From the NCBI GenBank assembly GCA_003222895.1, contig QHXI01000061.1, forward strand, positions 1 to 50,517: 50,517 bases of DNA, written 5' to 3'. The position numbers and the translations under genes were made by a program. The notes under the pieces are model-generated. The model was given only the letters and a program-made list of their open reading frames with translations, was not told where the DNA came from and did not search any database. This DNA comes from Acidobacteriota bacterium (GTDB taxonomy: Bacteria > Acidobacteriota > Blastocatellia > Pyrinomonadales > Pyrinomonadaceae). Positions 14,321 through 36,146 of this stretch are shown piece after piece; the stretch's first letter is position 1; every line of letters starts with the position of its first letter.

Positions 14321-14332
14321 TCGTTCACTTTC

Positions 14333-14415
14333 GTGTCAGTACCGCGAGCGGTAGCGACCGGATCAAAAACGCGTCCGCGCATGATCCACCTCGCTACCGC
14401 TCGGAGTTCTGACAC
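14333..14415. repeat. Palindromic element, GTGTCAG/GAGCGGTAGCGACCGGATC family, copy 1
   Basis: It starts GTGTCAGTACCGCGAGCGG at 14333 and ends CGGAGTTCTGACAC at 14415. The inner arms GAGCGGTAGCGACCGGATCA and TGATCCACCTCGCTACCGCTC are imperfect inverted repeats around a spacer of about 20 bases. It lies between the PflX-like and DUF2721 genes and closely matches copies at 23893 and 36079. Confidence 0.9.
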
Positions 14416-19799: not shown

Positions 19800-19898
19800 G
19801 GAGGCGCATCTGTTCTGGTGAATGGCGCGGTCTTCAAAACCGTCAGTGAGACTGCGAGAGCAGGCTCAGGTAGGTTCGATTCCTACACGCCTCCGCCA
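19800..19898 (+). tRNA. selC: Selenocysteine tRNA, anticodon UCA
   Basis: The acceptor stem GGAGGCG pairs with CGCCTCC, with discriminator G and an encoded CCA. The D arm is CTGTTC-TGGT-GAATGG, a six-pair stem, which is a mark of tRNA-Sec. The anticodon loop is CTTCAAA with TCA in the middle. The variable arm is very long (TGAG/CTCA outside, CTGC-GAGA-GCAG inside). The T arm is GTAGG-TTCGATT-CCTAC. Length is 99 bases including CCA, as for E. coli selC. UCA reads UGA as selenocysteine when SelA, SelB, SelD and a SECIS element are present. None of these is in the window. It lies about 240 bases from dprA and just before the box promoter. Confidence 0.93.
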
Positions 19899-19993: not shown

Positions 19994-21673
19994 ATGATCA
20001 ATTTTCAAACTTCTCCTGATCAATACAAACACTGGAAACTTTCTCTCGACGGGCCGGTGGCGAAGCTCTCGATGGACGTGCAGGAAGATGAGACGCTGGC
20101 CGACGGCTATAAGCTCAAACTGAATTCCTACGATCTTGGCGTCGATATCGAACTCGCTGACGCGATTCAGCGAATTCGTTTTGAGCATCCGGAGGTTCGC
20201 GCGGTCGTGGTCACGAGTTTGAAGCCGCGTATCTTTTGCGCCGGCGCGAATATCTACATGCTCGGCACTTCCTCGCACGCGTTCAAGGTCAACTTCTGCA
20301 AATTTACGAACGAGACGCGCTGCGCTATCGAAGACGACTCGCGACACTCGGGCCGGCGGTACCTCGCGGCCTTGAACGGAACCGCGTCGGGCGGTGGCTA
20401 CGAGCTGGCGATTGCGTGCGACAAAATCTATCTGGTTGACGACGGTAATTCCGCCGTCTCGCTTCCCGAAGTCCCGTTGCTCGGTGTGCTGCCTGGCACC
20501 GGCGGTTTGACGCGACTTGTCGATAAGCGAAAGGTGCGCCGCGATCGCGCCGACGTCTTTTCAACTCTGGCCGAGGGATTGAAAGGCAAACGGGCGAAAG
20601 AGTGGGGCTTGATCGACGATACGTTTGCCACGAGTAAGTTTCAGGAAGCGATTGATGATCGAGTGAGGCAAATTATTGATGGCGATGGGTCAGCAAAAGC
20701 GACCGGCAAGGATGCCGGTGAACCGCAGGCACAGATGCCTGCGCTCCGAGGAGCCGGCGTTAAATTGAATTCACTCGAATTTGAATCAAGCGTTGACGCG
20801 CGCGATTACAAATACGTTTCGCTGAAGGTTCATCGTGACAAGCGTTATGTTGATTTGATCGTGCGCGGTCCCGAATCGGATGCGCCGGCATCGACCGATG
20901 AAATTCAAAACTTGGGTGATGCGTACTGGCCGCTGCGCGCTTACCGTGAACTCGACGACGCGCTGCTTCACCTGCGCGTCAACGAACCCGAAATCGGATT
21001 GGTTTGCATTCGCACCGAGGGAAGCATCGATAACGTTTTGGCCGTCGACAAAGCGATCGGCGCGAATCGCGATCACTGGTTGATTCGCGAAATTATTTTG
21101 AACATGGCGCGCGTGCTGCGCCGGCTCGATCTCACTGCGAAAAGTTTTTTCGCCATGGTCGAGCCCGGCAATTGTTTCGCCGGCAACTTGTTTGAATTGC
21201 TGCTCGCCTCTGATCGCAGCTACATGCTGAACAGCCCGGATGAGACCGTTGAGATCGCTCTGAGTGAATTGAACCCGGGTGCTTTTCCAATGAGCAACGG
21301 GTTGACGCGTCTTGAGTCACGGTTCCTGGCTGAGCCGAAGAAGGCATACGAAGCGTTTGCGCACGATGGTCCGTTCGATACCGAAGCGGCGGAAGAATTT
21401 GGCCTGGTAACTTTCGCTCCCGACGATCTTGATTGGGAAGACGAAATTCGCGTGGCGATTGAAGAACGTACTTCGCTTTCGCCCGACGCGCTAACGGGGA
21501 TGGAAGCGTCTCTGCGTTTCGCTGGACCGGAAACCATGGACACGAAAATTTATGGCCGGTTGACCGCGTGGCAGAACTGGATCTTTCAACGACCGAATGC
21601 GGTTGGTCCGAACGGGGCGTTGACGAATTACGGCAAGCCGACGCAGGCGCAGTTCGACTTCAAGAGGACATAG
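19994..21673 (+). CDS. boxC: Benzoyl-CoA-dihydrodiol lyase / 2,3-epoxybenzoyl-CoA dihydrolase, BoxC
   Basis: A 559-residue protein from ATG 19994 (MINFQTSPDQYKHW); an upstream GTG (19925) lies before the operator. BoxC hydrolyses 2,3-epoxybenzoyl-CoA, opening the ring to 3,4-dehydroadipyl-CoA semialdehyde and formate. Two crotonase-like halves are visible. The first holds FCAGANIYML, TASGGGYELAIACD and LPEVPLLGVLPGTGGLTRL. The second runs from about residue 290 with FFAMVEPGNCFAGNLFELL and ELNPGAFPMSNGLTRL. BoxC is normally about 550 residues, so length fits. Residues 237-252, in the linker between the halves, are encoded by a palindromic repeat (20703-20748) of the kind found between genes. 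The gene is first in the cluster; only the repeat separates it from boxB. Confidence 0.92.
   Translation: MINFQTSPDQYKHWKLSLDGPVAKLSMDVQEDETLADGYKLKLNSYDLGVDIELADAIQRIRFEHPEVRAVVVTSLKPRIFCAGANIYMLGTSSHAFKVNFCKFTNETRCAIEDDSRHSGRRYLAALNGTASGGGYELAIACDKIYLVDDGNSAVSLPEVPLLGVLPGTGGLTRLVDKRKVRRDRADVFSTLAEGLKGKRAKEWGLIDDTFATSKFQEAIDDRVRQIIDGDGSAKATGKDAGEPQAQMPALRGAGVKLNSLEFESSVDARDYKYVSLKVHRDKRYVDLIVRGPESDAPASTDEIQNLGDAYWPLRAYRELDDALLHLRVNEPEIGLVCIRTEGSIDNVLAVDKAIGANRDHWLIREIILNMARVLRRLDLTAKSFFAMVEPGNCFAGNLFELLLASDRSYMLNSPDETVEIALSELNPGAFPMSNGLTRLESRFLAEPKKAYEAFAHDGPFDTEAAEEFGLVTFAPDDLDWEDEIRVAIEERTSLSPDALTGMEASLRFAGPETMDTKIYGRLTAWQNWIFQRPNAVGPNGALTNYGKPTQAQFDFKRT
20703..20748. repeat. Palindromic repeat inside the boxC coding sequence
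   Basis: CCGGCAAGGATGCCGG (20703-20718) is followed by CGCAGGCACAGATGCCTGCG (20723-20742), two hairpins in the style of intergenic fillers. Both are read in frame as part of the BoxC linker (KDAGEPQAQMPALRG). I recall the word CGCAGGCA...TGCCTGCG from acidobacterial spacers. Confidence 0.75.
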
Positions 21674-21675
21674 AG

Positions 21676-21738
21676 ATTGATCCAGTGAATCATTGATTCA
21701 TTGAATCAATGAACCGATGGATCAATGAATCAATACAT
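21676..21738. repeat. ATTGATTCA-type repeat between boxC and boxB
   Basis: The words TGATTCATTGA and TCAATGAATCA recur in both orientations, for example CATTGATTCATTG and CAATGAATCAATA, giving a palindromic segment. It fills the whole spacer, so the boxB start at 21739 lacks a Shine-Dalgarno. The same words occur at 23149-23240. Confidence 0.85.
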
Positions 21739-23145
21739 ATGAATCTTTACGATCGCATTCCTAACAACGTAAATCTTTCGGAAGACAAGCGTCTGCAGCG
21801 CGCGCTGGAGAAATGGCTGCCGAATTTTCTCGCGTGGTGGCACGACATGGGGCCTGAAGGTTTTCAGCAGAAGGATGTCTGGCTGCGCACGGCCGTCGAT
21901 GTGGGCAGCGCGGGCTGGGCGCATTTCGATTACGTGAAGATGCCTGAGTATCGCTGGGGCATTTTTCTCGAACCCGCGGAACCTGACGCTAAGGTTGGCT
22001 TTGGCGATAACTACGGTGCACCCGCATATCAGGAAGTGCCGGGCGAATTTCGCAATGCGTTGCGCCGTATTATCGTTACACAGGGCGACACTGAACCGGC
22101 TTCAGTTGAGCAACAACGACAACTCGGCCACACCTGTCCATCGCTCTACGATTTGCGAAATCTTTTTCAGGTAAATGTCGAAGAAGGACGTCATCTTTGG
22201 GCCATGGTTTATCTGCTGCACGGCTATTTTGGTCGCGATGGGCGCGATGAAGCCGATGCTTTGCTCGAAAGGCGCAGCGGCAATCCTGACAAGCCGCGCA
22301 TCCTCGAAGCCTTCAATCAGCCATGCGACGACTGGTTGAATTTTTTTGCGTTCACAATGTTCACCGATCGCGACGGCAAATATCAGTTGTCGGCACTCGC
22401 CGAGTCAGGTTTTGAGCCGTTGGCCCGCACCTGCCGCTTCATGCTCACCGAAGAAGCGCATCACATGTTTGTCGGCGACACGGGGTTGAGCCGCGTCGTC
22501 AAACGCACGGGGCAACTGATGAAGCAAAACCCGAACGAAGAGGTTCGCGAACTCGGTGCCATTCCGCTCGACATCATTCAGAAGTACATCAATTTCTGGT
22601 TTAGCTATTCCCTCGATCTGTTTGGCGGCGAGATCAGTTCAAATTCGGCGGACTTCTTTGCCGCAGGATTGAAAGGGCGCTTCAAAGAGCAGGAGCAATA
22701 CACGGATCACATTGCGGCGGAAGGCTCGTACACGATGATTGTCGTTCAAGACGGAAAGTTGGTTCCGCGCGAAGTGCCTTTGCGAAATGCTTTGAATGAA
22801 ATTCTGCGTGGCGAGTATGTGAAAGATTGCCAGAAAGGCTTGGCCCGCTGGAACAAAGCCTTGGCCGACGAAGGATTGAATCAACGGCTTTATCTCCCGA
22901 ACATTCGTTTCCATCGGCACGTGGGCGAGTACTCGGGTCATTACTTCGATCTTGAAGGAAATCTGATTTCGAAAGAAGAATTCGAAGCCGTGAAATCCGA
23001 ATGGTTGCCGGCGATCGAAGATCGCGAATATGTGCGCAGCTTGATGAAACCCGTGACTGAAGTTGGCAAGATCGCGAACTGGATTGCGCCGCCAACTTCC
23101 GGAATCAAGGGCAAGCCGTTCGAGTTTGAATATGTCCGACTTTAA
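21739..23145 (+). CDS. boxB: Benzoyl-CoA 2,3-epoxidase subunit B, BoxB
   Basis: A 468-residue protein from ATG 21739 (MNLYDRIPNNVNL). Ten residues of open frame upstream are repeat sequence and probably not translated. BoxB is the di-iron oxygenase component that, with the reductase BoxA, makes 2,3-epoxybenzoyl-CoA from benzoyl-CoA, O2 and NADPH. Iron-binding E-x2-H pairs are seen at E149/H152 (NVEEGRHLWAM) and about E239/H242 (MLTEEAHHMFVG). The conserved context is WFSYSLDLFGGEISSNSADF and IPLDIIQKYINFW. Length is as expected for BoxB (about 470). boxA is not in the window; a reductase elsewhere must serve. It is followed by a repeat-filled spacer of 83 bases before the TetR gene. Confidence 0.93.
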   Translation: MNLYDRIPNNVNLSEDKRLQRALEKWLPNFLAWWHDMGPEGFQQKDVWLRTAVDVGSAGWAHFDYVKMPEYRWGIFLEPAEPDAKVGFGDNYGAPAYQEVPGEFRNALRRIIVTQGDTEPASVEQQRQLGHTCPSLYDLRNLFQVNVEEGRHLWAMVYLLHGYFGRDGRDEADALLERRSGNPDKPRILEAFNQPCDDWLNFFAFTMFTDRDGKYQLSALAESGFEPLARTCRFMLTEEAHHMFVGDTGLSRVVKRTGQLMKQNPNEEVRELGAIPLDIIQKYINFWFSYSLDLFGGEISSNSADFFAAGLKGRFKEQEQYTDHIAAEGSYTMIVVQDGKLVPREVPLRNALNEILRGEYVKDCQKGLARWNKALADEGLNQRLYLPNIRFHRHVGEYSGHYFDLEGNLISKEEFEAVKSEWLPAIEDREYVRSLMKPVTEVGKIANWIAPPTSGIKGKPFEFEYVRL

Positions 23146-23148
23146 GAA

Positions 23149-23240
23149 TTTATTCATTGATTCATTGGCCCATTGATTCACTGAAGAATCTTTGCGCATC
23201 GATAATGAAGCAATGAATCAATGAACCAATGAATCAATTT
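23149..23240. repeat. ATTGATTCA-type repeat between boxB and tetR
   Basis: TTCATTGATTCATTGGCC... on the left and CAATGAATCAATGAACC... on the right are inverted, with about 35 bases between. The right arm runs into the first codons of the TetR gene (ATGAATCAATTT). Second copy of the family at 21676. Confidence 0.85.
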
Positions 23241-23885: not shown

Positions 23886-23892
23886 CGCGAAG

Positions 23893-23977
23893 GGTCAGTA
23901 CCGGGAGCGGTAGCGACCGGGATGAGAACATCCTGCGATTCACTTGATCCCGTCGCTATCGCTCCGGGTACTGACAC
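23893..23977. repeat. Palindromic element, GTCAG/GAGCGGTAGCGACCGG family, copy 2
   Basis: GGTCAGTACCGGGAGCGG at 23893 matches ATCGCTCCGGGTACTGACAC at the right end (to 23977) as an inverted repeat. The inner arms (GGTAGCGACCGGGATGA, TGATCCCGTCGCTAT) pair too. It occupies the whole spacer between tetR and the first crotonase; the crotonase ATG follows four bases later. Confidence 0.9.
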
Positions 23978-35405: not shown

Positions 35406-36146
35406 ATGCCGGCCAGCGAAAATCTGCCAGTCGTCGTGGCGCGGCTGGCTAAATTTTACGGCACGCCAAAGCCTCCAAGCACAACCGATCCCTTTGAACT
35501 AATCCTGTTCGAGAACGTCGCGTATCTCGTCACTGACGAACGCCGCGAAGAAGCTTTCAATCTGCTGCGCAAAACCGCCGGGACAAAGCCACATCAAATC
35601 CTGGCTGCTGCGAACAACATTCTCTTGAAAGTTGTGGATCTCGGCGGCATGCAACCGGAAAAACGTGCCGCGCGTTTGCGCGAGATCGCATTGATTGCGA
35701 TGAATGAGTTCGGCGGTGACTTGAGCGAAGCTTTGAAACTGCCGCTGCCGAAAGCGAAGAAAGCGCTGCAAAAGTTTCCCAGCATCGGCGAGCCCAGCGC
35801 CGAGAAGATCCTGTTATTCACGCGTTCGTATCCCGTGCTTGGCCTGGATTCGAATGCGTTGCGCGTACTTCTTCGTTTGGGATTCGGCGAGGAAAAAAAG
35901 AATTACAGCGCGAGCTATCGCTCGGTCCAGGAAGCAATTAAAGATCAACTAGGCGACGATTATGAGTGGTTGATTAATGCGCACCTTCTACTACGTCACC
36001 ATGGAAAAGAATTGTGTAAGACGACTCGGCCACGGTGCGAAAAGTGTCCGGTGAGGAAAAGTTGCGCTTACTATGCTCGTGTCAGAACCGCGAGCGGTAG
36101 CGACCGGATCAGGCGAGAGCGTGGCAAGTCTAAGGCGACTCTTTGA
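35406..36146 (+). CDS. Endonuclease III-like HhH-GPD DNA glycosylase with 4Fe-4S cluster
   Basis: A protein of about 246 residues from ATG 35406; a TTG 15 bases earlier is possible. It has an HhH-GPD core (FPSIGEPSAEKILLFTRSY) followed by LGLDSNALRVLLRLG with the catalytic Asp. The C-terminal cluster is C-x6-C-x2-C-x5-C (CKTTRPRCEKCPVRKSC), the 4Fe-4S loop of EndoIII/MutY. It has Glu where the Nth catalytic Lys would be near GEPSAE, so strand-cleavage activity is doubtful. The final 20 or so residues (VRTASGSDRIRRERGKSK) are coded by the palindromic repeat at 36079, so the natural stop was probably lost. It overlaps the convergent ligase gene by 156 bases. Confidence 0.78.
   Translation: MPASENLPVVVARLAKFYGTPKPPSTTDPFELILFENVAYLVTDERREEAFNLLRKTAGTKPHQILAAANNILLKVVDLGGMQPEKRAARLREIALIAMNEFGGDLSEALKLPLPKAKKALQKFPSIGEPSAEKILLFTRSYPVLGLDSNALRVLLRLGFGEEKKNYSASYRSVQEAIKDQLGDDYEWLINAHLLLRHHGKELCKTTRPRCEKCPVRKSCAYYARVRTASGSDRIRRERGKSKATL

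Follow-up and report, generated by a model that had tools for sequence, protein, structure and literature searches.

A probable intragenic copy of a REP-type palindrome in the BoxC interdomain linker of a Pyrinomonadaceae bacterium, with differing palindromes at the same linker in related genomes

How does a palindromic repeat come to be read as protein in the middle of a two-domain enzyme? The question is raised by the boxC gene of an Acidobacteriota bacterium of the family Pyrinomonadaceae, whose genome (G000; relatives carry other G numbers) is the source of the window, the whole 50,517-nt stretch of DNA analysed here. The original prediction, made from the sequence of this window, was that two hairpin words are read in frame in the linker between the two crotonase-like halves of BoxC and encode residues 237–252. 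Both hairpins were located and the codons agree: with the start at ATG 19994, positions 20702–20749 are codons 237–252. The element had been correctly picked out, with its coordinates (20703–20748) off by one base from the 20702–20747 determined here (Table 1). The remainder of BoxC, which had been judged normal, is so by its TIGR03222 score, which lies above the cut-off. Between the anchor residues Arg223 and Gly255, the linker comprises 31 codons in G000, as compared with 15 in G005, a relative of the same genus.

Table 1. Positions in the window of boxC, its palindromic insert and the next pathway gene.
Feature	Position	Strand	Basis
boxC, 2,3-epoxybenzoyl-CoA dihydrolase, 559 aa, two crotonase-like halves	19994..21673	+	TIGR03222 803.9 bits, cut-off 712.3; best solved relative 2w3p
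Family A element, 46-nt two-hairpin REP-type repeat, in-frame peptide TGKDAGEPQAQMPAL	20702..20747	+	21 other genome places, E <= 0.06; same element in frame in G006 BoxC and in EgtB of G000 and G001
Hairpin 1, ACCGGCA-AGGA-TGCCGGT, 7-bp stem, 4-nt loop	20702..20719	.	Pattern scan, fold
Hairpin 2, CGCAGGCA-CAGA-TGCCTGCG, 8-bp stem, 4-nt loop	20724..20743	.	Pattern scan, fold
GGAG foot (+ strand CTCC), adjoins hairpin 2	20744..20747	-	Like outer ends of A-type doublets flanking the C42 RAYT gene
Inserted codons 237–252 (approximate edges), 48 nt more than the empty G005 linker	20702..20749	+	Linker comparison; pLDDT <50 at 232–247
boxB, next pathway gene (context)	21739..23145	+	TIGR03225 736 bits

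The hairpin 2 pattern GCAGGCA-N0–10-TGCCTGC matches once in the window and in none of 100 shuffles. For hairpin 1, a loose scan tolerating up to three mismatches gave four matches, a number reached in 11 of 100 shuffles, so that by itself this result is no better than chance would allow. The folding energy of the 46-mer is −25.6 kcal/mol, as compared with −13.9 kcal/mol for its shuffles (z = −4.4); as a nearby part of BoxC that lacks the element also reaches z = −2.7, fold energy is weak evidence, and repetition across the genome is the stronger. The vicinity contains further features: a selenocysteine tRNA gene (anticodon TCA) directly upstream of boxC (window 19800–19898), an 8-bp word (TTGATTCA-like) that forms arrays in both spacers flanking boxB (window 21669–21734 and 23141–23238), and a repeat, GAGCGGTAGCGACCGG, present with its flanks at window 14331–14365, 23890–23924 and 36077–36111.

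The hairpin words had been taken for a spacer repeat, with the suggestion that the same words be sought elsewhere in the genome. Our search bears this out, as the element belongs to a repeat family scattered over the genome, referred to here as family A. When the region was used as a DNA query against G000, the element was matched at 21 further places with E ≤ 0.06 (best E 1.4e-12), leaving aside one further match, on contig C134, to the BoxC flank and not to the element. The exact hairpin 2 is present in eight copies in G000, including that of BoxC, whereas the reversed control gave none. At the seven other exact copies, a CCGG-type hairpin 1 lies on the same side in four (L001, L002, L005 and L006), a differently stemmed hairpin replaces it in two (L007 and L008), and L003 has another partner. 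The GGAG foot is kept in some copies (L001, L005 and L008) and is altered in others. Family A thus has the form of a REP, a short imperfect palindrome in many dispersed copies, although its 21 other places are fewer than the more than 100 copies given as usual for REPs in the available part of PMC2817692.

BoxC was present in 42 of 119 genomes of the host family, the named relatives being mostly metagenome assemblies. G031 was left out, its assembly (L160) being without the linker and the following residues and showing a frame change, which leaves 41 readable linkers. In 31 of these, the stretch between Arg223 and Gly255 has 12–16 codons and stems of at most five pairs, while the other ten have 21–49 codons and each a perfect stem of 7–9 pairs. 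Control windows of 99 nt elsewhere in the ten carrier genes, which are longer than the empty linkers, contained a stem of at least seven pairs in 59 of 1539 cases. Outside the host family, none of 76 BoxC rows has a linker longer than 18 codons, and a stem of 7 or 8 pairs is found in six of them. A distant BoxC with the same residues and no palindrome, a case that would speak against the original prediction, was looked for in these 76 rows and is absent. The predicted insertion of about 15 residues corresponds to the 16 codons in excess over G005; its restriction to this lineage does not stand, as the BoxC of G006 has the same element and eight more genomes have other palindromes there. By the BoxC family model, the element lies wholly within the open reading frame of a real protein, and it is missing from the short linkers of 31 of 41 family rows and all 76 others, as an intragenic REP would be. 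The G006 gene (L031) also contains an in-frame TAA a few codons upstream of the linker, either an assembly error or a sign of a broken gene.

The BoxC inserts are not one lineage-specific sequence: three dispersed palindrome families and a nested fourth palindrome occupy the linker, at several positions. Family A is found in G000 and G006, and family B (CGCAARYT..TTGCG) in G001, G002, G003, G004, G034, G014, G124 and G121. Two B hairpins in inverted orientation are present in six of the eight B carriers; G034 has one and an eroded stretch, G004 has one, and the B hairpins of G034 and G014 are partly eroded. In the G004 linker, family C (CCCTCC..GGGAGAGG) stands in place of the second B hairpin, and in G121 a 39-nt palindrome is nested in frame in the loop of the first B hairpin. 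The first hairpin begins at codon offset 2, 5 or 9 for family B, with constant codon phase, and at offset 14 for family A, and the inserts of the different species have neither a common peptide nor a common length. In the G006 linker, a B-like hairpin with one mismatch adjoins the A element; it may be a relic, or the codons (VAQIV) may be the host's own. In G000, the sequence to the left of the element (GCAAATTATTGATGG) was considered as a B hairpin in decay, but comparison with G005 (DGSAKA beside ADGQPKP) favours ordinary linker, and B was therefore not counted in G000.

These palindromes recur outside BoxC. The B pattern is dispersed over 34 places in G000, at least one of them probably by chance, and over 3–143 places in 11 of 12 other genomes, with no match for the reversed controls. 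The C pattern, with one mismatch allowed, is found in seven of eight genomes, again with none for the reversed controls. The nested G121 palindrome has a single other exact copy in G121, which makes its status as a dispersed family weak. The B stems differ between species as matched pairs. Stems of the T type (ARTT) are present in all seven g1 genomes as compared with none of the six others searched, and the BoxC hairpins of this type are likewise found only in g1. In G004, the T-type pattern occurs at two places, one of which is BoxC itself, so that the resident pool does not match the BoxC hairpin there.

Family A is also read as protein in other genes. Six of its 21 other places in G000 lie inside Pfam-supported open reading frames and not before the first domain, namely in AddB/UvrD-like, Lhr-like, EgtB-like, RsmB-like, VWA and DUF1800 frames. 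The first four contain an in-frame doublet that agrees in 37–41 of 45 letters, as compared with a maximum of 28 after codon shuffling; the VWA gene has a partial forward copy together with a reverse copy (36/45), and the DUF1800 gene a single hairpin. All five coding doublets of G000 (BoxC and these four) are read on the same strand and in the same phase, giving (T)GKDAGEPQxGMPAL-like peptides, and five of the six frames of the consensus are free of stops. Repeats before the first Pfam domain (L011, L020, L186 and L193) were not counted, because they may lie upstream of the true start. For family B, seven of the 34 places in G000 overlap a frame of at least 120 aa. A Pfam scan covering six of the seven, and L189 itself, placed B between or within Pfam domains in two of the scanned frames, at a ThiS–ThiF junction (L183) and in an FAD oxidoreductase (L195). 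The open frame of L189 (604 aa), with A- and B-like repeats, has no Pfam match and was not counted, and a B-pattern match in the Band_7 frame of L203 deviates from the other members of the family and probably reflects chance. At L183:315–1799, the B doublet joins a ThiS/MoaD-like domain, which ends in GG, to a ThiF/MoeB domain; the repeat may thus have made, or may bridge, a gene fusion.

The EgtB loop is a second site at which in-frame repeats differ across species, a many-insert pattern resembling that of BoxC. EgtB was matched in 15 of 40 relatives, and the seven rows that belong to other families have a short loop. Among the loci compared (L209–L217; own copy G000:C34:175166–175211), it contains family A in G000 and G001 and an A-like hairpin in G003. 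G002 and G005 have a common, different insert, the core word of which is also found near boxC in G123; their EgtB proteins are orthologues, so this insert may be inherited. In G004 the loop is occupied by an inverted pair of a repeat related to the GAGCGGTAGCGACCGG repeat, and in G014 by a tandem repeat. The EgtB gene of G006, split over two contigs, was left out.

A candidate transposase accompanies family A. Matches to Y1_Tnp (PF01797), a model that does not tell RAYTs from other IS200-type transposases, are present in all 13 genomes, with eight in G000, seven of them above the cut-off. The gene on contig C42 of G000 has A-type doublets just before its start and just after its stop, inverted and with their GGAG feet outward. 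In a set of six loci in five genomes, selected because their Y1 match resembles that of C42, A-type hairpins are present on both sides in four (L174, L225, L226 and L229), L227 has a related palindrome and L228 another one. A RAYT gene between two inverted REPs is the defining layout of the system, according to the portion of Nunvar et al. (2010, PMC2817692) consulted, and this arrangement, with the same repeat inverted on both sides, is found for family A at those four loci. The other seven Y1_Tnp matches in G000 have no A alongside, and several have hairpins of their own. Our searches found no transposase linked to family B. In a separate case, L172 (G000:C35:76900–79700), a Y1_Tnp gene lies amid spaced identical hairpins, three of the form CCAGCCG.. 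upstream and four of the form CCAGCGC.. downstream.

From these observations, we consider the 46-nt stretch to be an intragenic copy of a REP-type mobile palindrome that arose by recurrent insertion and is kept where a disordered loop tolerates it, a reading to which we give a probability of roughly 0.84. A RAYT, as a single-strand Y1 transposase, would copy or move the hairpin pair, the movement itself being what we infer. Insertions would land widely, but within genes the only survivors would be those that preserve the reading frame, introduce no stop and sit in a disordered loop at the protein surface. As such a loop, the BoxC interdomain linker would fill, erode and refill over time, and the enzyme would need no single insert. 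The distribution of family A is not wholly in line with repeat insertion: the exact hairpin 2 is found 22 times in G006, eight times in G000, seven times in G001 and 0–5 times in the ten other genomes, and G001 is without A in BoxC yet has nearly as many copies as G000, which counts against this explanation. Inspection by eye found no target-site duplication around the BoxC and EgtB copies and recognised no fixed target word. Speculatively, the host codons GTA-GCG-CAA might resemble the REP foot and draw insertions to this place. More tentatively, and with the balance of our judgement against it, the BoxC linker and the EgtB loop might be standing landing sites, at which transposase-driven repeats are inserted, replaced and nested in frame, the loops being drawn from whichever repeat is active in each genome, and the repeats having their own preference of frame and strand.

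The hairpins might instead act in the boxC mRNA, either as a pause site between the domains that aids stepwise folding or as a stability element, which we regard as unlikely. G000 and G006 are identical at 28 of 28 stem letters, although they agree at only 13 of 18 other element letters, 25 of 53 letters of the linker flanks and 107 of 227 BoxC fourfold sites, so that silent sites are near saturation. Identical stems beside diverged flanks and fourfold sites indicate that the hairpins are younger than the species split, were overwritten from a pool, or are constrained. As both genomes hold pool copies of A, the first two are favoured over constraint, and the stem identity fits recent copying from the pool. 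The stable RNA fold and the matched variation of the B stems would likewise suit a function in the transcript; matched stem variants are also found among the genome-wide copies, however, so that copying explains them. Furthermore, 31 of the 41 family BoxC genes have no hairpin at this place, including G005 and G128, which are nested among carriers, and the erosion of the B hairpins in G034 and G014 also speaks against such a role.

A single palindrome insertion in a common ancestor, diverged by point change and compensation, is quite improbable. In a BoxC tree built without the linker, the carriers fall in two groups within one larger clade, with the empty G005 and G128 (L155) among them and at least four presence changes by parsimony, and G000 and G006 have the A element at an identical base position, as a single inherited insertion would. 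Against this, the three families have no sequence relation to one another and each is dispersed in the carrier genomes, and the first hairpin begins at four different codon offsets. Constraining the ten carriers to one clade was rejected (p-AU 7.9e-5), and a clade of G000 and G006, a pair picked after the tree was seen, was disfavoured (p-AU 0.014). Families A and B at their respective offsets (three for B), together with the third family and the nested palindrome, suggest several separate insertions.

That the peptide was domesticated, i.e., recruited as a useful linker, was part of the original prediction, and here our analysis departs from it. In the AlphaFold model of G000 BoxC (mean pLDDT 86), confidence falls below 50 only at residues 232–247 and 160–167. 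The former are preceded by a helix that ends at 229 and followed by a strand from 264, and the structure 2w3p, aligned through this part of the protein, shows a gap of 15 residues where the insert lies; the insert is thus probably located in a disordered link between the two folded halves. Insertion of a dispersed repeat in frame into the interdomain linker is in this respect supported, with 16 codons more than in G005 at the place of lowest predicted confidence. Recruitment would agree with a stop-free, in-frame insert in a disordered linker and with the uniform strand and phase of the five coding doublets. The same phase recurs in the AddB-, Lhr-, EgtB- and RsmB-like genes, however, which points to tolerance of the peptide and not to a BoxC-specific use, and the VWA gene has a reverse-oriented copy as well. 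In addition, the linker peptides of 21 to 49 codons are unrelated between species, and G005, of the same genus, has none. With inserts lacking a common peptide or length and two nested relatives (G005 and G128) lacking any insert, tolerance explains the pattern better than recruitment, which we consider very unlikely. Palindromes that arise by chance, through codon bias in a linker that is GC-rich and of low complexity, would suit the stems of 7 or 8 pairs in six of the 76 linkers outside the family, which have no insert. This reading is refuted by the homology to dispersed copies (best E 1.4e-12), and the absence of the hairpin 2 pattern from 100 shuffles also speaks against it.

An insertion of this sort belongs to a known kind, since in-frame REPs and Rickettsia palindromic elements (RPE) have already been described. 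The accessible part of Di Nocera et al. (2013, PMC3733652) reports REPs wholly inside open reading frames, often as dimers and from the GTAG and CGTC families, different REPs at about the same site in recB of two Xanthomonas species, and RPE that are read in frame in numerous functional genes of a single genome. The BoxC case resembles these intragenic REPs in having short palindromes wholly within reading frames and different repeats at one site. It differs in the GGAG foot of family A and in that, across ten genomes, a single linker is occupied by three families and a nested palindrome, while some relatives placed among the carriers have an empty linker. The likeness to RPE, drawn from their description, is that of palindromic repeats in frame in functional genes, whereas the host phylum and the RAYT-like gene linked to family A set our case apart. 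As for the REP/RAYT system in the part of PMC2817692 at hand, the flanked transposase gene, the dispersed REPs and the BIME-like pairs are shared; REPs are treated there as extragenic, while here they also occur within linkers that are translated, and family A has few copies. GTAG is the conserved foot tetranucleotide of most REPs, and according to the same source GGAGCG is also found in Pseudomonas and Xanthomonas REPs. Family A has GGAG, not in every copy, and family B has GTAR on at least one side in 19 of 34 places.

BoxC, EgtB and the host family are not mentioned in the portion of PMC3733652 consulted, and the titles and abstract openings listed by our paper searches contain nothing on repeats in BoxC or in this bacterial family. 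Compared with that portion of PMC3733652, the present case adds a linker taken by so many families at so many positions, a nested palindrome, carriers interspersed with empty relatives, and another gene, EgtB, in which the pattern is similar. One well-understood enzyme thereby offers a natural series of linkers that are empty or hold one repeat, two repeats or a nested repeat. The series lends itself to asking how small mobile DNA comes to encode protein, whether insertion picks its target or is only tolerated there, and what an insert costs. The case shows how mobile DNA can supply bacterial proteins with new loops, and variable linkers in these genomes should be read with caution, as they may be mobile DNA and not selected sequence. 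If the linker and the loop were standing landing sites, these repeats would be a continuing source of new protein loops, and orthologous enzymes of related species would differ in the origin of their loops.
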